Positions 41,773-54,981 of a DNA stretch of 64,000 bases are shown one piece after another. The stretch is from Spirochaetales bacterium (lineage in GTDB: Bacteria; Spirochaetota; Spirochaetia; SZUA-6; RPPD01), in contig JAFGSW010000034.1 of assembly GCA_016934415.1 (NCBI GenBank), forward strand, positions 1 to 64,000, in the 5' to 3' direction. Below the pieces are notes generated by a model that saw nothing but the letters and a program-made list of their open reading frames with translations, did not search any database and had not been told where the DNA came from. The translations under genes were made by a program, and so were the position numbers. Every line of letters begins with the position of its first letter. Position 1 is the first letter of the stretch.

Positions 41773-44700
41773 CTATCGCACCACCTTGTCGCTGATGAGC
41801 TCGAGGATGAGCTCCACCTCGCCGCGGGAGAGCTTGGTGGCGCGGGCGATCTCCTCCGCCGACCAGCCCTGGCGGGCGAGCTTGGTCACCGTCTGCCGCT
41901 TGTCGAGCGAGGGCGCGCCCTTCTCCTTCTTGAAGCGGCTCACGTCGTCCTTGACCAGGGTCTCCAGGAGCTTGAGCTGCTCGTCGGCCTGCTTGCCGAC
42001 CTTCTCCAGCCGGGTCTCGGTGCGGGCGAGCCAGTCGCGCGCCACCGAGAGCTTCTCCATCCGCGCCTCGATGTCGGCCAGCGTCTCGTCGAGTTTCTCG
42101 ATCTTGCCGGCCGCCTGCTCGGTCTTCTCGCGGTTTCCGTTGATGTACTCGACCTCGCGCTTCACGTCCGCCAGGAGCTTGGGCAGCGTCTTGAACTCGC
42201 GTTCGAACGACTTCAGGTCCTTTTCCAGGGAGGTGAGCTGCTCGAAGTTCTTGTCCACCGAGCGGGTGGTGGTCTCCACCACGTTCTTCCGTCCCTCGAG
42301 CCGCGTGTAGCGCGCCTCGACGTCCGTCTCGAGCGACTCGAGCTCGCGGAACCTGATCTCGAGGGCCTGCAGGACGTCGTGCTGGGAGCCGGCGGACTCG
42401 AGCTTCTCGTCGATGCCGCGCGAGAGCTCGAGGAGCCGCTGGAAGTCCGACTCGATGCCGTCGATCCGCTTTTTCTCCGTGATAAAATCGCGCATGCGGG
42501 CGTTCGTCTCGTCGACGAGCCTCTTGGTGGCGATGAATTCCCGCGAAACGCCGTCGATGTCCTTGCGGTACGTTTCGATCTTGGCGATGTCCTTCTTCAT
42601 CCGGCTCACGTCCGCCTCGAGCCCGAGCTTGAGGGTGTCGGCGCGTTCGAAGATCTTGGTCTGGGCCGCGAAGTTCTTCTGCTGCCGCTCGATCTCGGCC
42701 AGGCTGGCCTCCACCGTCTTCATCTTGTCGTCGAACGACTGGAGGAACGTCTTCTGCGCCGCGAAGGCTTTTTCCCGGGCGCGTTCCATCGACCCGGCCA
42801 TGTCGGCCATCTGGGCGAGCGCCTTCTTGCGCGCCGCCTCCACCTCCGCGGAGAAACCTTCGGCCAGGCCGGAAAGCGTTTCCTCCTTGGCGGCGATCCG
42901 ATCCTCGCAGCCCCGCTCGAAGTCCCGAACGCGGCCCTCGATGCCCTTGAAATCCGCCTCCACGGCCTTGCGCACGCCGGCCAGCTCCTTCTCGAGCCTT
43001 TTCCGGTAGACGGCGCCGAGCTTCTCGACGTCGGCGGCCGACGCCGTCTCGGCCTCCGCGAGCTCCTTGACGAGCGACTCGCGCCAGTCGGCGATCTTCC
43101 GGTTCATCTCGTCGCTCCGGTTCCGGAGATCGTTGAAGAACTCGTCCTCGACGAGCTTGAGCTTGGCGGAAACGCTCTCGTAGGCCCGGGCCTTGAGGTC
43201 GTTGACGCCGGACTCGATGCTCTCGATCTCCTCGCGCAGTCCGGCGAGCTGCTTTTCCGCCAGCGCGCGCTCGGCCGCCCGCCCGGCCTCGAGCTCTTCC
43301 GTGATGGCGCCGAATTCCGTCCTCATCTTTTCGGCCGCCGCATTGAGTTCCTTCCGCAGCGCGGCGAGCTCCTTCTCCGCCCGGGCGCGTTCGGCCGCCC
43401 GTCCGGCATCGAACTCATCCGAGAAGGCGCCGAATTCCGTTCGCATCTTCTGCGCCGCCGCGTTGATTTCCTTCCGCAGGCCGGCCAGTTCCTCCTCGGC
43501 CCGGACGCGCTCGGTTTCCCGTCCCGCCTCGAGATCCTTCGCGACCGCGTCGAAATCGGTCCGGATCCGGTCCGCCGTCGACGCCATCGTTTCGCGCAGG
43601 CTCTGTTCGAGGGCCTCAACGTCGACGCTCGCCTTCTCGAGCTTGTCGAACCGATAGCGGACTTCGTCCTCGTACTCGCCCAGGCGCTTCTCGATCGAAT
43701 CGAGCACCCGCGCCTCCACGCCGGTGGCGCCGGCCGTGAGCTTCTGGTACAGCTTCTCGGAGTCCTCGCTCGCGGCAGCCATTTTCTCCGTGATCTCCCG
43801 GTCGAAGGAGGAGACGAGGCTCTTCACCTCCTTTTCCAGGAGCGCCAGCCGCTCGCGGACGTCCTTTTCGAAACCCGCGGTCCGTTCGGTCAGGGCGCGG
43901 CGGCTTTCGGCGAAGCCCTCTTCAAGCTCCTTCATCTTGGCCTGCAGGGCGGCGGCCGATTTCCCGACCCGCTCGCCCGCGTCGCGCTCGGCCTTCTGGG
44001 CGGTGAGGGAGAAATTCTCGATCGACGTCCTGGCGTACGTCTCGAGGTTCTTCAGCTGGACCTCGATCTCCTTTTCCTGATCCTTCATCTGCTTCTTGAG
44101 CTCGGCGTGCCAGATGGAGGAATCGGAGCGCAGGGCGCCGAAGAGCTCCACGATTTCCTTCTTGCGCTTTTCAAGCGCGGCGTGGGCCGTCTGGAAGTAG
44201 CGCTCGGCCTCGCGCTCGCCGTCGCGGCCGCGCTCGTCGATGGCCTTCTTGAGGTTGAGGAACACCTCGTCCTCGAAGTCCTCGCCGCGCTTGGCCGCGT
44301 TCTGGAGATGGGTGTAGAACATGCGTTCCACCTGCCCGAACTGATCCTTGAAGTCGTCGATCTTGGCCGAGAACTCGGCGTCGAGCTCCTTGACCCGGCG
44401 CTCCACAGCGCCGAGGTTGTCGGTCATGACCTGATTTCTCTCCTCGGCCTCCTTCATCAGGACGTCGATCTCGGATTTCATGCCCGCGCTCTCCTGCGCG
44501 CGCCGCTTGCCGACCTCCTGCTCGAAGGATCTCAGCGCCTGCCCGATGGCGGTCTCGGCGAGCTTGACCGTTTCCTGCTTTTTGATGTCGATGCGCTTGA
44601 GGTAGGATTCGATTTCGCCGGCGCGGGCCTCCATCCGCCCCACGTCCGCAAGCAGCAGGTGGATTTTTTCCTCGTGGCCCTTGATGAGCCGCTCCTCGGT

Positions 44701-45201
44701 CTCCTTGAGCTCGCCGCGGGCCAGATCGATGAAGCGGCGCTCGGCCGTCTTCAGGTCCGCGTCGACCTTGGCGAGCCTCCCGCCCGACTCCTTGAGTTTG
44801 GCGCCCATCCGCTCCACCGATTGCGATTCCTCGGCCAGGCGCTTCAGGTTCTCGTCCACGCGGCCGGACATGTTCATGAGCTCGTCGAGCGACGCCGCGT
44901 AGGAGTCGACCGTCTTCTTCATCCGGTCGAAATCGTCCGCCTTGTCCTTGAGCGTCTCCTCGAACGACAGAATGCGGGTGAGGATGTCGCGGCTTTTGTT
45001 GAGCTCGTCGTCGATGTCGACGCTTAAGGAATTGAGCTCCAGACTCCTGTCCTTGATAAAGGCGTCCAGCTCCTGTTTGGTCTTGTCGGAGAACCGTTTC
45101 AGCTTCTCCAGGCTGCGGTTTTTTTTATCGAGAACGCGGAAAAGGAATATGATAATGATGGCGATCGCCAAAGTGGGCAAAGAAAGGCTGAAGACGTCCA
45201 T
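41773..45201 (-). CDS. SpiroCoCo-type giant coiled-coil membrane protein
   Basis: 1142 residues from ATG 45201 (GGGGAGGGG upstream). One N-terminal span (LSLPTLAIAIIIIFLFRVL), then more than 1000 residues of heptad-like coiled coil rich in E, K, A, L and R. A 40-residue unit repeats about 2.7 times in the middle (AGRAAERARAEKELAALRKE ... NAAAEKMRTE, coded at about 43240-43570). The last 35 residues look like a small HTH (TVTKLARQGWSAEEIARATK). This architecture is the spirochaete SpiroCoCo family, membrane-tethered with the coil in the cytoplasm and a structural role suspected. Transcribed alone from a strong promoter. Confidence 0.85.
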   Translation of the reverse strand: MDVFSLSLPTLAIAIIIIFLFRVLDKKNRSLEKLKRFSDKTKQELDAFIKDRSLELNSLSVDIDDELNKSRDILTRILSFEETLKDKADDFDRMKKTVDSYAASLDELMNMSGRVDENLKRLAEESQSVERMGAKLKESGGRLAKVDADLKTAERRFIDLARGELKETEERLIKGHEEKIHLLLADVGRMEARAGEIESYLKRIDIKKQETVKLAETAIGQALRSFEQEVGKRRAQESAGMKSEIDVLMKEAEERNQVMTDNLGAVERRVKELDAEFSAKIDDFKDQFGQVERMFYTHLQNAAKRGEDFEDEVFLNLKKAIDERGRDGEREAERYFQTAHAALEKRKKEIVELFGALRSDSSIWHAELKKQMKDQEKEIEVQLKNLETYARTSIENFSLTAQKAERDAGERVGKSAAALQAKMKELEEGFAESRRALTERTAGFEKDVRERLALLEKEVKSLVSSFDREITEKMAAASEDSEKLYQKLTAGATGVEARVLDSIEKRLGEYEDEVRYRFDKLEKASVDVEALEQSLRETMASTADRIRTDFDAVAKDLEAGRETERVRAEEELAGLRKEINAAAQKMRTEFGAFSDEFDAGRAAERARAEKELAALRKELNAAAEKMRTEFGAITEELEAGRAAERALAEKQLAGLREEIESIESGVNDLKARAYESVSAKLKLVEDEFFNDLRNRSDEMNRKIADWRESLVKELAEAETASAADVEKLGAVYRKRLEKELAGVRKAVEADFKGIEGRVRDFERGCEDRIAAKEETLSGLAEGFSAEVEAARKKALAQMADMAGSMERAREKAFAAQKTFLQSFDDKMKTVEASLAEIERQQKNFAAQTKIFERADTLKLGLEADVSRMKKDIAKIETYRKDIDGVSREFIATKRLVDETNARMRDFITEKKRIDGIESDFQRLLELSRGIDEKLESAGSQHDVLQALEIRFRELESLETDVEARYTRLEGRKNVVETTTRSVDKNFEQLTSLEKDLKSFEREFKTLPKLLADVKREVEYINGNREKTEQAAGKIEKLDETLADIEARMEKLSVARDWLARTETRLEKVGKQADEQLKLLETLVKDDVSRFKKEKGAPSLDKRQTVTKLARQGWSAEEIARATKLSRGEVELILELISDKVVR

Positions 45202-45564: not shown

Positions 45565-46326
45565 TCACTCCGCGGGCAGGAGGCGATCGTTTTCCCTCGT
45601 CGCGAGGAGCTTGGCGTTGGGGACGATCGCGCGGCCGCTCACCGAACAATAGAGCAGCCAGTACGAGGAATCGGGGCAGGCGAAAGGAACGTCCGCTGGA
45701 GACGCCGCGGCCCCGGGAGGAGCGGCCGCAGCGGCGGAAAAGCGATAGTCCCCGGGAACGACCGAACGGAAACGCGAGGCGGCGTTCGCTTCAAGGCGTT
45801 CCGCCCGGAGGACGGGAAACGCCTCGGCCCCGGCCGAAGCGACCGTCATTGTGGTCGCGTTCCCGACCGACCCGTTGAGAAAACAGAGTCGGGCGCCGGA
45901 GCGCTGATCGTCGCCCAGGTCAAAGGCCCGGATGAAGCCCCGCCGGTCGACGACGAGGGCGGTTACACCGCCCGGCGCGAGCCGGCAGCGGAAAGCGTCG
46001 AAATCTCGAAGCGGCCGATGCCATCCCTTTCGGCCGGACGTGCCGTAGAGAACGAGGTACTCCCCGCAGCGCCGGACCGCGACAAGCGGCGACACCTCTC
46101 CCGGGCGCAGGGCCTCGACCGTATATGCCGCCTCCGGCTCCTCGCCGAGGCGCAGTGATACCGGCGCGGCGTAAAAGTTGACGGTGAAAACGTAGGCGCG
46201 CCCGTCCCCGGCCACGCATGAACAAACACCCCAACCGGCGAACAATGTCATTCCCATGAGTCCTGCGATGAGCGACCGTTTTCGGCGCCCCTGACGAAAC
46301 GGGCTGCGCGACGAATTTTTTCGCAT
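45565..46326 (-). CDS. Secreted or lipid-anchored protein of unknown function
   Basis: 253 residues. A basic start (MRKNSSRSPFRQGRRKRS) and a hydrophobic stretch lead to GVCSC, a possible lipobox at about residue 34-36. The mature part has beta-type strands (VFTVNFYAAPVSLRLG, EYLVLYGTSG, GVTALVVDRRGFIRAF) that recall DUF4397- or AlgF-like small beta-sandwiches, but no firm match can be claimed. An Ala/Pro-rich linker precedes the last 60 residues. ATG 46326 has only AAGAAGA as ribosome site. It follows the big ATPase-like gene by 45 bases, likely the same transcript. Confidence 0.6.
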   Translation of the reverse strand: MRKNSSRSPFRQGRRKRSLIAGLMGMTLFAGWGVCSCVAGDGRAYVFTVNFYAAPVSLRLGEEPEAAYTVEALRPGEVSPLVAVRRCGEYLVLYGTSGRKGWHRPLRDFDAFRCRLAPGGVTALVVDRRGFIRAFDLGDDQRSGARLCFLNGSVGNATTMTVASAGAEAFPVLRAERLEANAASRFRSVVPGDYRFSAAAAAPPGAAASPADVPFACPDSSYWLLYCSVSGRAIVPNAKLLATRENDRLLPAE

Positions 46327-46371: not shown

Positions 46372-49300
46372 TCATACCAGTTTGTTGAGCTTGGCTTCCT
46401 CCAGGATGAGCTTGTTCCAGTAATTCTGGCCGATGTACTGGATGCGGTCCCTGGGCTCGTCGATGACGGTGGAGCGTTCCTGCAGGTGTTTGAGAGATTG
46501 GTTTAAAATGGTGAGACCGTGGCCGACCTCCTGCAGGGACGTTTTCTTCTTTTCCAGAGTCTTGAGCACCATGTAGTACAGATAATAGAACAGGAACACA
46601 TGCGGATCGGCCTCGGAGAACTTTTCGGTCGTGGTGAGCAAATGCAGCTCGGCGATCCCTTCGTCCAGGTTTCCGGCTCGGCATTGGAGCACCGCGCGGA
46701 ACGCGCGGCAGAGCCTGATTACCGGGGTGCCGTGCGCGTTCAGGTCGAGACAGCGCCCCTCGACGAGTGAGAAACCGCCTCCCCAGGAATTGTATTCGGG
46801 GAAGAGCGGGGAGGACGCCGGGCGCCGGTGCAGCGCTTTCGTGAAGACCTTCTCCGCCTTTTTGAATTCTCCGGCGAGGAAGTGCAGTTCGCCCCGGATG
46901 AAGAGCGTTTCGTCGGTCTCGTCGAGCCCGCGCAGGAGCTGGAGGGCGTAGCCGGTCTGGCCCTGGTAAGACGCGCAGCGGGCGATCCAGGCGAAAAGCG
47001 TGGTCTCCGCCCGCCTGAAACCGTACAGGCGGGCGAGAGCGAGCGATTCCCGCAGCAGGAGCGACGCCCGCTCGTAATAACCGAGATCAAACAGGACGCG
47101 GGCTTTGAGCACCCCGAAGAGGAGCTCCGTTTCCCGGAACCCGTGCGAGCCGGCCAGGAGGGCCGCCTCGTCGCAGTTGGAGAGGATGCGGGAATAATTC
47201 CCCCGCAGGTAGAGGGCGACCGACTCGAACCAGAGCGAACGCGCGTGAATGAACGGGGCCTGGATGTCCTGCACTAGTTTGCCGGCGAACGAAAAATACT
47301 CGAGCGCCTCCTTGAGGTTGCCCTTCGCCAGGAAACCGCAGCCCAATTCCAGGAAGGATTCGCCCGTGGGGGCGGGCATGGAGAGCTCCTGAAAATACTG
47401 CACGGCCTTCTTGAGGAATGGGAGGGCCTTGGCCGTTTCCTCGCGGCACAAGTGGTAGCGCCCCAGCTCGAGGTACAGGCGGGCGAAATAGGGTTGCGGC
47501 ACGAGCGATTCGGTCGGCAGGGTGCTGCCGGCCGCGAGCTTGTCGGCGCCCGCGACGTCTCCCTTGAGGAGGTGAAATCGGAGCCGGCAGGCGAACAGGA
47601 TGTAGTGGAGCCTGAGGCGCCGCTCCTCGGGAAGCTCGGCCGGGCGGAGGTACCGCTCGGGCGTGAGGAAAAATTCCGCCTGCGGCAGGAGCCGGGCGTC
47701 CAAATAGTGGTTGATGACCGGTACCAGGTGGTCGACGACGACGTCGGCGGCTTCAAGCGAGGCCAGGAAACGGAAGCAGCGTGCGGCGCGGGAAGGGAGG
47801 AATTGAGGCAAGTGCTCGCGCACATAGGCGCGCATCTGGTCCTCCAGGTATTTGACCTTCTGGGCCGAAAGGCGGCGAAGCACTCCGCGCAGCAGGGCCG
47901 AGAAGCGCGGCCGTTCGTTGCCGAAGAAGAGCTCCATGCTGCGCAGGTAGGCGATCTGCTCCTCCACTTTTTTGGGCGTCAGGCCGATGACGGTGAAAAA
48001 ATCGAGAAGCTCCCCGTGGAAAAAAAATCCGCCCAGGCTGTATCCGACGAAGAGAACCGTCCGCGCCTCCTCCTTCAGCGACCGTATGATGACGACGGTC
48101 GCCGTCCGCTGCCGTACGGGAATCTTCACGGCGAGCTCTTTCCGCGGCGCCCAGGCGAAACGGGTTCCGTCCTGCACGATCTTCCGGTTGAGGCGAAGGT
48201 AATAAATGAGATGCAGGAGCGCGCCGTACCGGCCCCGCGACAAGCGTTGCACCGTCTCCACCACCTTGCGGGGAACCGCCACACCGGGATAAAGAGCGGT
48301 GAAGCAGAGCCGCGTCTCCTGGAGTCCGAACGGTTTGATGTTGATCCGGACCCGGGCGTAGCCGCGGAAGACCGCCGGCGCCTGCCGGCGGGTGGAGACG
48401 AGCACGATGGCGATGCGGAAGCGGCGGCTTAAATCGTCGCAGACGGTTTTCAGCCTTTCCGCCACTGAAGAAGCGAGGCGCTCCGGTTTCCGGAAAAGCA
48501 TGATGCCGGGAAGGCGGTGCTCGGCCATGAGACGGAAATACGCGGTCAGGTAGAGGTGATACACGATGAAGAAATCCTCTTCGCTGCGATCGCCGGAAAC
48601 GGGCTTCCCGCCAAGGAGCGTCAGGAGGAAGCTTTCGTAGGATTTCCAGATCCGCCGTTCGTGCGTCTCGAGGTACTGCGGCACCCTCTTGAGAAATCCT
48701 TCGCGGACGGCCTTGAGACTTTCCACGAGCGGGGAAACGCTCGACATGGCGGAATTCCCTTTTCCGACGACCTGCACGAGCGCGGCCCGTTCCTTCCCAA
48801 GCACCGAGAGCAAGGATGCGGAGACGATTTCCTCCAGGGCGCAGTCGAACGGTCCGGCCACGAACGCGAGCGCAGGATAACGCTTCGTTTTCGTAAACCA
48901 GATAAGCAGCAGCTGCGCCAGACGCTTGATGGCCCTTTTTCTCACCCGGGGAACGTAGGAAATGACGTTATACGACGGTTCGACTTTTCTGCTTTCAACG
49001 ATCCGCGCGTACGAATCGCCGGGCTCAAAATGGGCGTGCTGCTTGAAAAAATCGGTTTCGCGATTGTGGACCCACAATCCCTCGCCCTCGAGAATCTCGA
49101 GGAAGGCTCCCGCGAACCGCGCTTCGACGTTGGCCGGCCGGGCATCCGCCATCGAGGAGAGGAGCAGGTTATACCCATACAGCTCGTCCCGGAACTCGGC
49201 CACGGTCGCGGCCAGTTGGAAGGCGGCGTCAAGAACGTCCTTGGGGTCGGCGTTGCTCTCCTCCCCCATGGCGTAGAGAGAGAGCCCGGCCCGCTTCTTG

Positions 49301-49428
49301 AACAATCCGACATTGTTCTGTTTCACGACGCCGTCCATCTTCGCTTCGAGTGTCCGGATCATCCCCGGGTTGCAGACAATGAGTTGCTTATAGTGATCGA
49401 TTTCCAACCCGAGGTAGAGCATGATCAT
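46372..49428 (-). CDS. Degenerate STAND/AAA-type protein with TPR C-terminus
   Basis: 1018 residues from ATG 49428. The middle follows the AAA_16/STAND pattern: ALAFVAGPFDCALEEIVSASL, LPGIMLF at the Walker B place, IAIVLVSTRRQAP at the sensor place, then INIKPFGLQETRLCFTALYPG and LSRGRYGALLHLI, as in LuxR-type and MalT-type ATPases. No Walker A (GxxxxGK) is present and Walker B lacks acidic residues, so ATP hydrolysis is unlikely. From about residue 560 to 1000 there are TPR-like helices (YHLCREETAKALPFLKKAV, LRGNYSRILSNCDEA). It is divergent from the partner-switching operon and could be its sensor or scaffold (inference). Confidence 0.65.
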   Translation of the reverse strand: MIMLYLGLEIDHYKQLIVCNPGMIRTLEAKMDGVVKQNNVGLFKKRAGLSLYAMGEESNADPKDVLDAAFQLAATVAEFRDELYGYNLLLSSMADARPANVEARFAGAFLEILEGEGLWVHNRETDFFKQHAHFEPGDSYARIVESRKVEPSYNVISYVPRVRKRAIKRLAQLLLIWFTKTKRYPALAFVAGPFDCALEEIVSASLLSVLGKERAALVQVVGKGNSAMSSVSPLVESLKAVREGFLKRVPQYLETHERRIWKSYESFLLTLLGGKPVSGDRSEEDFFIVYHLYLTAYFRLMAEHRLPGIMLFRKPERLASSVAERLKTVCDDLSRRFRIAIVLVSTRRQAPAVFRGYARVRINIKPFGLQETRLCFTALYPGVAVPRKVVETVQRLSRGRYGALLHLIYYLRLNRKIVQDGTRFAWAPRKELAVKIPVRQRTATVVIIRSLKEEARTVLFVGYSLGGFFFHGELLDFFTVIGLTPKKVEEQIAYLRSMELFFGNERPRFSALLRGVLRRLSAQKVKYLEDQMRAYVREHLPQFLPSRAARCFRFLASLEAADVVVDHLVPVINHYLDARLLPQAEFFLTPERYLRPAELPEERRLRLHYILFACRLRFHLLKGDVAGADKLAAGSTLPTESLVPQPYFARLYLELGRYHLCREETAKALPFLKKAVQYFQELSMPAPTGESFLELGCGFLAKGNLKEALEYFSFAGKLVQDIQAPFIHARSLWFESVALYLRGNYSRILSNCDEAALLAGSHGFRETELLFGVLKARVLFDLGYYERASLLLRESLALARLYGFRRAETTLFAWIARCASYQGQTGYALQLLRGLDETDETLFIRGELHFLAGEFKKAEKVFTKALHRRPASSPLFPEYNSWGGGFSLVEGRCLDLNAHGTPVIRLCRAFRAVLQCRAGNLDEGIAELHLLTTTEKFSEADPHVFLFYYLYYMVLKTLEKKKTSLQEVGHGLTILNQSLKHLQERSTVIDEPRDRIQYIGQNYWNKLILEEAKLNKLV

Positions 49429-49578
49429 TTTTAGCAAAATTCAGCTTTTTTTTCAAATGGGCATGCGAAAAAACGATCTGAAAACCCTTTTTTGGTTTCG
49501 CGGCTTGACTTTTTCACGGAAAAGGACGAAAAATACTATGAGCGGGTTTTAGTACGATTTTTCGGATCAAATAGCGAT

Positions 49579-51579
49579 ATGGAAAACATTCCGAACCCAT
49601 TTCTATACCTCACCTCCACTACACTGGCCGTGGCGCTTTTCCTTTGGCTGCTCTATCACTACATAAAAAAGCGCACGCTGAACCCGGCCCTCAAGGCCCT
49701 GGGCCGGCTGATCCCGCTTTTCCTTGTCCGGGAAGGACTCGCGTCGGTTTTTCTGTTTATCCGGGCCTTTACGCCCCTGCCCTGGGCGGTCCTGGATCTT
49801 ATTTTCTTCCTGACGGACAGCCTGGCCATTCTTTTCCTGGTTCTCTGGACCGCGAAGTACAGCGGGCGGAAGGCGTTCGCCGTACCGTTCATCCTCATAA
49901 ATATTCTTGTCGCTTTTTTTCTCGGCCTCGCCTTGGCGATCAACCTGTTTCCCAAGGAATCCGGCTGGGTGCCGCGGCTCATCCCCTGGACGGTTCTCCT
50001 CGGCGACTGGATCGCCTTCGCGATCATGCTCGGCGCCATCACCGAATTCAACACGCCCAATTCCGGACACCTGATCGAGCTGCGCGCCCGACTCACTCAG
50101 ATACCGATCGCGGTCACGACCGCGGCCGCCCTCCTTTTCGGCGTCATCAATTTCGATTACGACCACCCGTTCATCAAATACATATTCCTGCCGCTCACCT
50201 ACGGCGCCTACGTCTATCTTTTTTACAAATACGTCGTCATTCACGAAACCGACGAGGAACAGCGCATCGGCTTCCTCGAGAAGGACATCAATTCGCTGTT
50301 CGATTTCATGTCCAACTTGGGGAGCGCCATTTCGGAAAAGTTCGATCCCTCCCAGGTGCTCGACTTCATCACGTCCTCGGTCGTGAAGTCGACCAATGCC
50401 GACGCCGGGGCCATCATGCTCGTGGACGAGGCCGAAAACACCCTCAAGGTGGAGGCGGTCACCGGCGTCTTCCCGCCGCCGTACCCCGTGCCCGACATGG
50501 TGAAGGTGAAAATCGCGAGCATGCAAAATTACTTCAAGTCGATGCCCATTAAAATCGGCGAAACGATCCTCGGGGAGGTGGCCAAGACCGGCAAGCCGCT
50601 CTTCATCCGCAACACCCTGCAGGACGAGCGCATGAAACAGAACACCCAGAACGACACCCTCTTCGTGAGCTCGATCATCATCCTGCCGCTCATCGTGTCC
50701 AAGCGCATCATGGGGGTCATCGCCCTCCTGCGGCGCGACCGGCTGAAGCTGTTCACCGAGACCGACTACGATCACGTGAAAACCTTCGCCAATTACTCGT
50801 CCCTCACCCTCGACTTCCTCTTCACCTATTTGGAGCTCATCGAAAAGCGCGAATTGGAGAGGGAGCTCGGAATCGCGGCGGAAATCCAGCAGAAGCTCCT
50901 CCCGCGCAAGCTGCCGGAACTCAAGACCGCCACCATCGGCGCCTTCTCGATTCCCGCCAAGGGCGTCTCCGGCGACTACTACGATATCCTCCAGTTCACG
51001 GGCGGCCGCATCGGCCTGGTCATCTGCGACGTGGCCGGCAAGGGCGTGCCCGCCGCCCTCATCATGGTCATGATCCGGTCCATCCTTCACCTGATCACCT
51101 CGGCGGAGAAGGACGCCGCCAAGGTCATCACCTGGATCAACCGCGGTATCACCGGCAAAATCGACATCGACCGCTTCGCCACCATGAGTTTCATGACCTA
51201 CAACGAATCCACAGGTGAGGTCATCTATTCGAACGCCGCCCACCACCCCTTATTGATTTTCAGGGCGAAAACTGCTACACTAGAGAATGTCGACACGGAA
51301 GGGTTGCCCATCGGCATCGAACGGACCGCCAAATACGGGCAGAAGCGCATCAAGCTGGGAAAGGGCGATGTCGTCGTTCTCTATACGGACGGCATTATCG
51401 AAGCCATGAACCAGACCGGCGAGCAGTACACATACGAGCGCTTCTCCAAGCTCATCCAAGAGAACTCGGGGCTGGCGACGGACGAAATCATAGCGAAGAT
51501 CAAGGCGGACTTGAAGGCCTTTGTCGGTCCTGCGCCTCAGCACGACGATCAGACGCTGATGCTCATGAAAGTGAATTAA
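49579..51579 (+). CDS. Membrane PP2C phosphatase 7TM-GAF-SpoIIE (RsbU-like)
   Basis: 666 residues; ATG 49579 is chosen because the hydrophobic region begins just after it. About six to seven spans (residues 10-215), a short coiled linker, a GAF domain (about 245-400; ADAGAIMLVDEAENTLKVEA, LPLIVSKRIMGVIALL), a helix (ERELGIAAEIQQKLLP) and the SpoIIE phosphatase (about 435-665; PAKGVSGDYYDI, ICDVAGKGVPAAL, FATMSFMTY, YSNAAHHPLLIF, VVLYTDGIIEAM, HDDQTLMLMK). Acidic metal ligands are present. It should dephosphorylate the STAS protein encoded next. Confidence 0.92.
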   Translation: MENIPNPFLYLTSTTLAVALFLWLLYHYIKKRTLNPALKALGRLIPLFLVREGLASVFLFIRAFTPLPWAVLDLIFFLTDSLAILFLVLWTAKYSGRKAFAVPFILINILVAFFLGLALAINLFPKESGWVPRLIPWTVLLGDWIAFAIMLGAITEFNTPNSGHLIELRARLTQIPIAVTTAAALLFGVINFDYDHPFIKYIFLPLTYGAYVYLFYKYVVIHETDEEQRIGFLEKDINSLFDFMSNLGSAISEKFDPSQVLDFITSSVVKSTNADAGAIMLVDEAENTLKVEAVTGVFPPPYPVPDMVKVKIASMQNYFKSMPIKIGETILGEVAKTGKPLFIRNTLQDERMKQNTQNDTLFVSSIIILPLIVSKRIMGVIALLRRDRLKLFTETDYDHVKTFANYSSLTLDFLFTYLELIEKRELERELGIAAEIQQKLLPRKLPELKTATIGAFSIPAKGVSGDYYDILQFTGGRIGLVICDVAGKGVPAALIMVMIRSILHLITSAEKDAAKVITWINRGITGKIDIDRFATMSFMTYNESTGEVIYSNAAHHPLLIFRAKTATLENVDTEGLPIGIERTAKYGQKRIKLGKGDVVVLYTDGIIEAMNQTGEQYTYERFSKLIQENSGLATDEIIAKIKADLKAFVGPAPQHDDQTLMLMKVN

Positions 51580-51603: not shown

Positions 51604-51963
51604 ATGGAATTGAAGGTTCGAAAATTCTCATCCACCTACATCATCGACGTCAACGGCGAGATGGACCTGTACAACTCCTACAAGCTCAAGGAACTCGTCC
51701 TAAAAATGATCGAAAAAAAGATCGACAAGTTCATCATCAACCTGGAAAACGTCGACTACATCGACTCGAGCGGCATCGGGGCGCTTATTTTCATCTGTTC
51801 GCACATAAAAAAGGTGAATATGAAGTTGCAGATCACCAACATTCACGGCTCGGTCAAAAAAGTCATCGAGCTCACCAAGCTGATGGGCTACTTCCCCATC
51901 TCGAACAACATCGATCAAGCCATTGCGAAAATTGAACAGAAACCCATGGAGGCCCAAGGATGA
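51604..51963 (+). CDS. Anti-sigma factor antagonist, STAS domain
   Basis: 119 residues, ATG 51604 after GGAGAGG. A single STAS domain: YIIDVNGEMDLYNSYKLKE, FIINLENVDYIDSSGIGAL with the phospho-acceptor Ser55/Ser56, and LMGYFPISNNIDQAI. In its dephosphorylated form the family binds the HATPase partner. It is flanked by phosphatase and kinase genes and overlaps the latter by four bases, the standard partner-switching order. Confidence 0.95.
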   Translation: MELKVRKFSSTYIIDVNGEMDLYNSYKLKELVLKMIEKKIDKFIINLENVDYIDSSGIGALIFICSHIKKVNMKLQITNIHGSVKKVIELTKLMGYFPISNNIDQAIAKIEQKPMEAQG

Positions 51964-52514
51964 GTCAGGTCAAACTCCTGGAGGTCAATGAAAATTCAAA
52001 GCTCTTCGACAAGACCGGCATGTTTTTCAAGGAATTCGACAGCGATTTCCGCCAAATCCGCTACTACACCCTGCTCGTCGTCCAAAAAGCACCGACGGAA
52101 ATCAAGGAAATCAACCTGCTTGAGCAGCAGATTTCCGAGATCATCAAGAACGCGGTGAAGCACGGCAACAAATGCGACCTGAAGAAGAAGGTCAAGGTGT
52201 GGTATTACTTCAGCAAGGACAAGGCGCACCTTATAGTCGAAGACGAGGGCGAGGGCTTCAAGGATCTGGAAGGCTGGAACGAATTCAACAAGAAACGGAT
52301 TGAATGCTTCCTCAATCAGAACTTCGAGGAAATGGAAAAATACGTCTCCTACCGCACTTCCAAAAGCGACGACCACGATTCGGGAAACGCCATGTTCGCG
52401 GCGGTCGAATACTGGAACGGCGGCGTCGTGTTCAACAACAAGAAAAACTGCATCGCCGTGCTCAAGACGTTTCCGAAGAAGAAAAAGGGAATCGACATGG
52501 AGGACATGCAGTAA
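51960..52514 (+). CDS. HATPase anti-sigma/switch kinase, RsbW-like
   Basis: 184 residues, overlapping the STAS gene. GHKL signatures: N-box ISEIIKNAVKHGNKCD, G1 box VEDEGEGF. The ATP lid is odd: a long helical insert (FNKKRIECFLNQNFEEMEKYV) precedes a DSGNAMFAA segment where GxGL is usual. ATP binding is thus plausible but not certain. It would phosphorylate the STAS protein and hold a further partner; no sigma gene is adjacent. A terminator follows at 52538. Confidence 0.85.
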   Translation: MSQVKLLEVNENSKLFDKTGMFFKEFDSDFRQIRYYTLLVVQKAPTEIKEINLLEQQISEIIKNAVKHGNKCDLKKKVKVWYYFSKDKAHLIVEDEGEGFKDLEGWNEFNKKRIECFLNQNFEEMEKYVSYRTSKSDDHDSGNAMFAAVEYWNGGVVFNNKKNCIAVLKTFPKKKKGIDMEDMQ

Positions 52515-52589: not shown

Positions 52590-53849
52590 TTACGGCGGCG
52601 GGGCCAGGGGCGGCGGGGGCGAGCCCCCCTCCCAAGTTTTATGCGCTTCCTCGGAAAACGGCTTACCGTACAGGAACTCGTACAGGAAGGTGAAATCCCG
52701 CTCGGGCACGTCCATGAATTGGGCGGCGAAATAGGAACTGTCGGCGTCCTTGAACTTTCGCATGATGCGCGTGCCGAGGACGAGCTTCCGGCCCTCGATT
52801 TCAAGGTGCAGCCGGAGGTCGTGAAATAAATCTATTTTTCTCTCGAGCTCGGTCCCCCCCGCCGCGAAGAGCAGCCCCGAGGCGCTTATATCGATGACCG
52901 GAGCCGTGTGCTCGATTTGACCGCGGGCGTGCTCCAGGTAATACCCATTGATTTCAAGCGAATAACTCAGCACTCGCGAAAACTGGACGACTTCCTCGAG
53001 CAATTCCCGCCCGAACCGTTCCGTACGCGGGCGCGTGTTGACGAGGTGAATGTATCCGACCGCGTATTCATGGTAGAGGATGGGGCACATGAGTTCGGCC
53101 GTCACGCCGTTCTTCGCCTTCATCGCCGTCAGGTTCGTCGCCTCGCTCCGAACGAGGTACGGCGGCGTCCCGGTCACGGCCAAAAAATCCTCCACCTCGC
53201 GTTTCACGATAATGTTCCCGGAAAAACCGGGATCATTGAGGGGCAGGTCCTCTGCCGTGGACGGTATCCACAGCGCCTTGCCGAGCTTGACCGTGAGTCG
53301 CTCCTCGAAGGTGGCGGGGGTCCTATCGCGGTACATGACGATTGTAAGGTCGCTGATCCGGCCCTGGAGGGAGGTCCGGAAGGCGGCGGTCATGTCGCCG
53401 ATGCGCGAGGGATTGAAGGAGGAAGAGTACTCCGGCGCTTCGACAAGCGTAAACGTATCGGTTTTGGGGAAATCGAGCTCCACCTTGTCGCCCTCGAACA
53501 TGAAGAAAAGCTTTATCCCCGCGAGCTTGATCCGTTCGTATTTCCGCTGGGGGTCGCGGTAAATGGACTTCGGATTCCCGACCTCGAGGCCCTTTTCGGT
53601 TCGGGCCAGCACCTGCGAGTCGAACGTGTAATAACTGTTCTGAAAGTCGAAAAATACGCGGATGCGCTCTTTTCGCTCGAACGCGTTCTGCCCCGGTTCG
53701 GCCTGGGCCAGGGTGATGGATTCGTCCGCGAGGGAATCGATCATGAAGGGCGATTCTTTTTTATCGCCGTGCACGCTCACGACGGTCCCCTGCTGCTGCA
53801 ACCGGCTGAGGATGAATTCCTTTTCGATCCTGTTTACCTGTACGCCCAT
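52590..53849 (-). CDS. PilZ-domain c-di-GMP receptor candidate
   Basis: 419 residues from ATG 53849, with AAGGA seven bases upstream; the longer open frame above it is Arg-rich and unlikely to be coding. Residues 15-100 resemble the YcgR-N fold. RKYER (102-106) gives the RxxxR motif and FNPSRIG (145-151) an NxSxxG. A GAF-like middle part (about 220-310; VRSEATNLTAMKAKNGVTAE) precedes a second unit with VIDISASGLLF (DxSxxG) and a hydrophobic end. It thus looks like a tandem or split PilZ protein, as known in spirochaetes. It probably reads the c-di-GMP made or cleaved by proteins of the island. Confidence 0.72.
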   Translation of the reverse strand: MGVQVNRIEKEFILSRLQQQGTVVSVHGDKKESPFMIDSLADESITLAQAEPGQNAFERKERIRVFFDFQNSYYTFDSQVLARTEKGLEVGNPKSIYRDPQRKYERIKLAGIKLFFMFEGDKVELDFPKTDTFTLVEAPEYSSSFNPSRIGDMTAAFRTSLQGRISDLTIVMYRDRTPATFEERLTVKLGKALWIPSTAEDLPLNDPGFSGNIIVKREVEDFLAVTGTPPYLVRSEATNLTAMKAKNGVTAELMCPILYHEYAVGYIHLVNTRPRTERFGRELLEEVVQFSRVLSYSLEINGYYLEHARGQIEHTAPVIDISASGLLFAAGGTELERKIDLFHDLRLHLEIEGRKLVLGTRIMRKFKDADSSYFAAQFMDVPERDFTFLYEFLYGKPFSEEAHKTWEGGSPPPPLAPPP

Positions 53850-54046
53850 GACGTCGTCCTTTGGCGGTCCGGTCGTCCCCCGCGTCCGGCGCGCGAAGCC
53901 GAACCATGGCGCGGCGCCGCCGGCGGGCTTGTGCCGCACGCGCTTCCCCGCGCCGCGCAGCAGCGCATTTTCGGCTTTCACGTCCGAATATAAACGTACG
54001 TACCTAAAGTCTCGGCCTTTTCGAAACGAAGCCTGACAGGCATCTG

Positions 54047-54085
54047 GCAGGCTGTTGAAAATGCTCGAGGTTTTCAACAACCTGC
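54047..54085. terminator. Hairpin after the Pro/Ser-rich lipoprotein gene
   Basis: GCAGGCTGTTGAAAA (54047-54061) pairs with TTTTCAACAACCTGC (54071-54085) with one mismatch, loop TGCTCGAGG. It begins inside the minus-strand stop codon region at 54085. GCAGGCTGTTGAAAA is a common intergenic stem-loop sequence in many bacteria. Confidence 0.7.
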
Positions 54086-54885
54086 TAGTGGTCTTTCAGC
54101 AGAAAACGGTAGCTTCCGGGAACGAACGGTTCTTTCGATTTTTCGTACTTCTTCGCCAGGAGCGTGAACCCGGCCTGGAGATCCTTCACCAACCATGCAT
54201 CCTCGATTTTCTTCACGTATATCTCGCCGGTGGTGATCCCCTCGCCCCGGTACAGGCGGAGACCGGCCCGGATCTCGTCGTCGCGCTCGAAGGAAATTTT
54301 TCCGATCCTGTACCGCTCGGGCACGTAGCCCTGCGAAAGCGGATACGATATGACGGATTTGATCTCGGCCCTGACGGCCGGGATCACGAGCGCGTCATCG
54401 ATTTTTTTCTTCGCGAGGCCGTCCAGAAAGGCGCGGATGGTTCCGATCGCGCGGATGTAATCGCGCGTGGCGGACACCCCGTCCTGAAGCGGCCCGATTT
54501 TAAAATCTTCCGGCATGAGTCGCTGCTGCGGGTAATAGGCGAAGAGGCCGGCCTCATTGGTCAGAGTGCGGGACGGGCCCGGACTCGGACTTGACACCGG
54601 CGAAGGGCTGGGCGAAAGACGGATCACCTTCCCTTGCTCGCCGCTCCGCGGCGGCGGCAGGGTCGGTTTCTGAAACGCATTTTTCCGCTGCTCGGGCGAA
54701 AGATTTGTCGCGGGCCGCTGACTCGGGCTCCTGCTCGGACTCTGAGTCGGACTGGGAGCCGCGGACGGCGTCACTTCAATCATCGGTGTCGAAGGCGATG
54801 AGTTTTCCTTGATACAGGCGGCGCAGAATAGGGCGGCGCCGATGAAGGCGATTCCCGCCGCGCACCCGGCCATCGTTATTCGCAT
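54085..54885 (-). CDS. Lipoprotein with Ser/Pro-rich linker
   Basis: 266 residues from ATG 54885 (AAAGG upstream). Lipobox LFCAAC (Cys about 24), then a 75-residue linker of Ser-Pro repeats (PSPTQSPSRSPSQRP, SPSPSPVSSPSPGPS). The globular part (about 110-266) has helices and strands (DYIRAIGTIRAFLDGLAKKK, GEIYVKKIEDAWLVKDL) that recall NTF2-like or similar periplasmic folds, but no family is certain. Repeats of TCGGACT/CCGGGAC type give the linker DNA low complexity. It stands alone. Confidence 0.72.
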   Translation of the reverse strand: MRITMAGCAAGIAFIGAALFCAACIKENSSPSTPMIEVTPSAAPSPTQSPSRSPSQRPATNLSPEQRKNAFQKPTLPPPRSGEQGKVIRLSPSPSPVSSPSPGPSRTLTNEAGLFAYYPQQRLMPEDFKIGPLQDGVSATRDYIRAIGTIRAFLDGLAKKKIDDALVIPAVRAEIKSVISYPLSQGYVPERYRIGKISFERDDEIRAGLRLYRGEGITTGEIYVKKIEDAWLVKDLQAGFTLLAKKYEKSKEPFVPGSYRFLLKDH

Positions 54886-54981
54886 CCGTATCGGCCTTTC
54901 ACCCTTTCCGCGCCTCAAGGCACAGTCCTTGGCGCAGTTTCTTTCAGCTGAAAGTATAGCCGAAGGCCATTGGTTTGTCCA

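Follow-up and report, generated by a model that had tools for sequence, protein, structure and literature searches.

An apparent pseudo-cyclase/STAND-like/TPR protein without nucleotide motifs lies divergent from partner-switching genes in spirochaetes

Results

Genes at the locus

The window analysed here is a stretch of 64,000 nucleotides from the 4.06-Mb draft genome of a Spirochaetales bacterium. Its gene of interest encodes P0001, a protein of 1018 residues, and lies back to back with three partner-switching genes. The features of the locus are listed below; for the parts of P0001 the means by which they were delimited are given in brackets.

46372-49428, minus strand: P0001, a putative pseudo-cyclase/degenerate STAND/TPR protein (ORF, family alignment, AlphaFold2, Foldseek)
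48979-49422, minus: class III nucleotidyl-cyclase fold, residues 3-150 (AlphaFold2, Foldseek)
48340-48951, minus: NBD-like part of the NOD, residues ~160-363 (AlphaFold2, Foldseek, alignment), with the Walker A position at residues 192-199 (GPFDCALE) and the Walker B position at residues 306-318 (LPGIMLFRKPERL)
47905-48324, minus: helical and winged-helix domains, residues ~369-508 (secondary structure of the model, Foldseek match to 6mfv)
46375-47631, minus: TPR array and strongly conserved C-terminal end, residues ~600-1018 (Pfam, alignment)
45565-46326, minus: co-directional 253-residue protein that directly follows the TPR gene and has a hydrophobic (signal-like) N-terminal stretch and a Cys
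49579-51579, plus: SpoIIE-type PP2C phosphatase with N-terminal hydrophobic (membrane) helices and a GAF domain (Pfam, relatives)
51604-51963, plus: STAS protein of the anti-anti-sigma type with a DSSG phosphoacceptor motif (Pfam, motif)
51960-52514, plus: RsbW/SpoIIAB-like HATPase, which retains the N-box E..N and the G1 box DEGEG and has an unusual G2 box (Pfam)
52590-54080, minus: c1, a conserved convergent neighbour with a C-terminal PilZ domain (cluster comparison, motifs)
54085-54918, minus: c3, a conserved neighbour without a Pfam family (cluster comparison)

The reading frame of P0001 is open over 46372-49437 on the minus strand (1021 codons, counted from a TTG). The true start is likely ATG 49428 or ATG 49422, because the codon at 49422 corresponds to the first codon of the orthologues. 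The SpoIIE-type frame is likewise listed from a TTG (49492-51579), and here ATG 49579 suits the relatives better.

When P0001 alone was used as query against the genome contigs, no relatives were recovered. The family as such is present in 44 of the 61 genomes of its Spirochaetota class (E <= 1e-40), which places the observation beyond chance. Outside the class no member was found among 120 genomes across Spirochaetota (E <= 1e-30), and in the genomes sampled here the family thus appears confined to this one class. Alignment, motif counts and structure model all use 39 family members.

Predicted structure of P0001

Pfam ATPase models do not match P0001; only TPR models do (TPR_1, TPR_2 and TPR_12). 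That the family nonetheless has a real ATPase-type region follows from the detection of AAA_16 in 14 of the 39 aligned members. The AlphaFold2 model (mean pLDDT 87.8), together with Foldseek, gives the order NBD, helical domain, winged helix, arm and TPR array. Its closest PDB match is 6mfv (E 8.5e-11), the STAND protein PH0952 with a TPR sensor, and MalT and APAF-1 are also found among the matches. The first three parts make up the NOD as defined for STAND proteins, of which the winged helix is a standard component, as in PH0952 (PMC6468293). P0001 therefore has the NOD of a STAND ATPase by its model and by these three matches, and the arm (helices 510-590) followed by a repeat sensor as well; functional Walker A and Walker B motifs are what it lacks. 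Invariant and near-invariant alignment columns concentrate in the TPR array and the C-terminal end.

Ahead of this core lies a domain for which sequence profiles give no family, and Guanylate_cyc is absent among the Pfam families listed for the P0001 family; its identity comes from comparison of folds. Folded alone, the N-terminal 148 residues reach a pLDDT of 94.6, and each of the 50 PDB matches that Foldseek listed is a class III cyclase (adenylyl or guanylyl) or a construct derived from one (best E 4.9e-07). With the catalytic aspartates placed by topology rather than by superposition on a cyclase structure, the first metal position is D in 3 and E in 17 of the 39 members, and the second (after a Gly in the beta2-beta3 hairpin) is D or E in none; P0001 itself has E and L. 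P0001 thus shows the fold of a class III cyclase and not its two metal aspartates, so that the domain is apparently a cyclase fold that has lost its catalytic residues.

Repeated loss of the P-loop

In P0001 the Walker A column holds GPFDCALE, against GENGTGKT, GPPSTGKT and GYRGVGKT in orthologues, and the Walker B column holds LPGIMLFRKPERL, without acids, against for example LPAVFICDDVDLY. A P-loop of the form GxxxxGK[ST] at the same column is intact in 11, near-intact in 6 and lost in 22 of the 39 members, the lost ones including all three members of the window's own family. In this lineage both catalytic domains are, by their motifs, dead: the P-loop, the Walker B acid and the hairpin aspartate of the cyclase are all gone.

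Mapped on a tree built from the TPR region, an intact P-loop requires 7 changes of state, at least 5 of which are forced by supported branches; loss is the more plausible direction than gain. We further compared the identity of both regions in pairs with a TPR identity of 22-40%. Where both proteins have an intact P-loop, the two regions are equally similar (ATPase 29.4%, TPR 29.3%); where both are without it, the ATPase region drops to 17.3% against 26.7% for the TPR region. Given the latter difference, the TPR part kept its constraint after loss of the P-loop and the ATPase part much less so. Taken together, the changes on the tree and the region identities suggest that the family has apparently given up nucleotide use on several occasions while the TPR part stayed constrained.

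The initial annotation had described a thousand-residue ATPase-like/TPR protein with traceable STAND-like sensor-type and winged regions, an absent Walker A and a Walker B without acids, and this description stands. It missed the N-terminal cyclase fold, and it had named homologues with an intact P-loop at the same place as evidence that would refute its reading. Such homologues exist: since 11 of 39 are intact at the same column, the "dead" state is a recurrent loss and not a family-wide character. The intact P-loops point to continued use of ATP in some lineages, and the common mechanism of the family may be ATP-dependent, with the dead members as a modification.

No association appears between P-loop state and linkage to SpoIIE, which is seen in 3 of the 11 intact members and in 8 of the remaining 28. 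A tie of P-loop loss to kinase linkage was considered as well (1 of 13 linked members intact, against 10 of 26 unlinked; Fisher p 0.06) and rejected, as tree-aware pairs were unsupportive. Among loci drawn with the kinase described below, the P-loop is intact in only 1 of 27 ORFs, in a sample that overlaps the first one.

Partner-switching and PilZ genes around the family

The window operon contains the complete set expected of partner switching: a PP2C phosphatase, a STAS protein with its phosphoacceptor Ser and a GHKL kinase with N and G1 boxes. These three genes are divergent from the TPR gene in 3 of 3 genomes of the window's family and also in G003, G013, G018 and G042; in G008 and G022 each half of the locus runs into the end of a contig, which would fit the same order.

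In 14 other genomes from 8 families a second GHKL ATPase (cluster c8) takes the divergent place, at a spacing of 46-93 bp, and in most of these a small PilZ protein follows it. The motifs RxxxR and DxSxxG are present in all 10 PilZ proteins examined downstream of c8. In its fullest form the locus thus runs from the TPR gene, divergently, to GHKL kinase, PilZ, SpoIIE, STAS and HATPase; G029 has the whole set in one order, G040 and G050 most of it. We also drew 33 named loci with the c8 kinase alignment alone, all from Spirochaet-/Treponema records. The TPR gene lies divergent beside c8 in 27 of these 33, usually at 38-178 bp, counting two loci in which it is split into two ORFs (L093, L101) and one whose contig holds only its first part (L118). 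Many show the order TPR gene, then divergently c8, PilZ, (SpoIIE), STAS, HATPase.

Within the window's family the TPR gene has kept its place next to SpoIIE-STAS-HATPase, and the kinase and PilZ form one fused gene at another site. The fusion in the window's genome G000 has 306 residues (contig C90, 60685-61605; locus L075:7686-8606, minus) and adjoins an AIR-synthase-type gene; in the relative G002 it adjoins HypF and HypD. Three genomes keep c8-PilZ and have, instead of the TPR gene, a thioesterase-like gene (c33, named from its sequence alone), so that the switch can do without the TPR gene. In roughly half of the 44 genomes the TPR gene lies away from all these switch genes.

Overall, the divergent arrangement with partner-switching genes, noted at first for the window only, is conserved across many spirochaete families. 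The SpoIIE, STAS and HATPase genes had been recognised correctly; overlooked were the genes for the GHKL kinase and the PilZ protein, which stand nearest to the TPR gene on the divergent side in most of the other linked lineages. As the STAS proteins keep DSSG, the HATPase its N and G1 boxes and c8 its GHKL boxes, the genes beside the P0001 family look as if they encode an active switch.

Some further neighbours were observed. The c1 protein carries RKYER about 200 residues ahead of DISASG, in which it resembles Leptospira PilZ proteins with an inserted domain (PMC12943098). Together, c1 and c3 (window 52590-54918, minus) are kept near the locus in 12 of 39 compared loci. The 253-residue protein at 45565-46326 occurs only in the window's family (25-31% identity) and is possibly an exported partner. 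A 1142-residue ORF at 41773-45201 (minus) has a homologue in L032 and weak Pfam matches only. Downstream of the TPR gene, family f2 carries a response-regulator gene and a second SpoIIE-type phosphatase (L034:5443-7071, L035:3336-5012, L037:7946-9559).

Discussion

A candidate scaffold or sensor

STAND proteins are understood as ATP-driven switches. As P0001 is without a nucleotide switch, it is most simply read as a scaffold or docking protein, and its back-to-back linkage suggests an undescribed protein-binding part of a phosphorylation switch. Our preferred reading, held tentatively and at somewhat less than even confidence, is that P0001 acts as an ATP-independent cytoplasmic scaffold or sensor for the adjacent c-di-GMP-linked partner-switching module, a physical link that we infer. 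Following the STAND plan, sensing would fall to the TPR array and the effector role to the N-terminal domain. The TPR superhelix would bind the input (a ligand, peptide or partner protein), and the degenerate NOD and the pseudo-cyclase domain would pass it on through a change in conformation or docking that needs no ATP cycle. Such a relay could alter the amount of free GHKL kinase or STAS protein, with SpoIIE supplying the dephosphorylating input and PilZ that of c-di-GMP; the switch beside the TPR gene probably senses cyclic di-GMP as well. We likewise infer which protein is bound and what the switch finally acts on (a sigma factor or another target). GHKL kinases are the conserved partners, followed by STAS/SpoIIE.

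Alternatively, P0001 might sense a nucleotide or small ligand at a non-canonical site, for instance a cyclic nucleotide or c-di-GMP in the pseudo-cyclase pocket or in the degenerate NBD. The locus is surrounded by PilZ proteins, the first metal position is still E, or rarely D, in 20 of 39 members, and BcsE offers the precedent of a c-di-GMP regulator with a RecA-like fold and no Walker A motif (PMC7439463). The cyclase-fold domain, however, is one of the most weakly conserved regions of P0001, shows no evident conserved polar pocket and has, in its own alignment, a single glycine conserved at 90% or more, which makes this reading unlikely.

It might also be argued that the TPR gene is an unrelated neighbour of the switch genes, retained through common descent: it lies apart from them in many genomes, and c1, c3 and HD-domain genes likewise show class-wide synteny. 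We regard this as improbable, given that the divergent pair of TPR gene and kinase is kept in many families whereas the other flank of the TPR gene varies, and that in the window's family, where the kinase lies elsewhere, the TPR gene is still found beside the SpoIIE-STAS-HATPase operon.

A third possibility is an ATP-independent, MalT-like transcription regulator of the divergent operon, for which binding of the neighbours would be unnecessary. The short divergent spacing (38-178 bp) is typical for a regulator and its target, MalT is structurally related by Foldseek, and the model contains a winged helix. That winged helix, however, is the standard one of the STAND NOD and no DNA reader (PH0952, PMC6468293), Pfam finds no DNA-binding effector domain, the effector position is occupied by the cyclase fold, and in about half of the genomes the TPR gene is located elsewhere; a regulator of this kind is decidedly doubtful. 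Anti-phage STAND defence of the Avs type was rejected, with no PADLOC match for P0001 and only weak P-loop/TPR stretches in an orthologue.

Returning to the scaffold or sensor, the reading could be extended to a class-wide spirochaete system. In it, a pseudo-cyclase/pseudo-STAND/TPR scaffold would control a PilZ-linked GHKL kinase together with the SpoIIE-STAS-HATPase switch and would couple c-di-GMP to partner switching, its ATP switch repeatedly dropped and its regulatory job kept. This wider proposal is possible, and we put it forward with clear reserve. The conserved locus does suggest a link from c-di-GMP (through PilZ) to partner switching in spirochaetes, which the PilZ-kinase fusion in the window's genome makes directly testable. 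More generally, repeated loss of the P-loop with sensor and signalling neighbourhood kept would show what a STAND protein is capable of without its motor.

Comparison with known systems

In line with the initial view that this part of partner switching was not yet described, the literature searched (which took in few subscription papers) contained no paper on either the family or the locus. A functional parallel is BcsE, likewise a c-di-GMP-linked regulator with an NTPase-like fold and a diverged Walker A that acts through protein contacts; it differs in its RecA-like fold, its REC and GGDEF-like domains and its role in cellulose secretion, with no sequence kinship to P0001 shown (PMC7439463).

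The RsbU/RsbV/RsbW and SpoIIE/SpoIIAA/SpoIIAB modules share with the neighbours of P0001 a SpoIIE phosphatase, a DSSG STAS protein and a GHKL kinase. Compared with these modules, the spirochaete locus adds the STAND-like protein and (in most linked lineages) a GHKL kinase and PilZ, and no sigma factor gene was recognised nearby among the neighbours examined.

With PH0952 and MalT, both STAND proteins with a TPR sensor, P0001 has the NBD-HD-WHD core, the arm and the TPR array in common. It differs from them in lacking Walker A and the Walker B acids, and in carrying a cyclase fold at the effector position, where MalT has a DNA-binding domain. A class III cyclase domain, a STAND-type NTPase and TPRs are combined in soluble adenylyl cyclase (sAC/ADCY10) and in bacterial cyclase-AAA-TPR proteins. 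The cyclase-fold domain of P0001 is short in comparison to sAC and single rather than double, with the hairpin Asp in none of the 39 members, whereas the order of modules (class III cyclase, STAND-type NTPase, TPR) is common to sAC, these bacterial proteins and the P0001 family.
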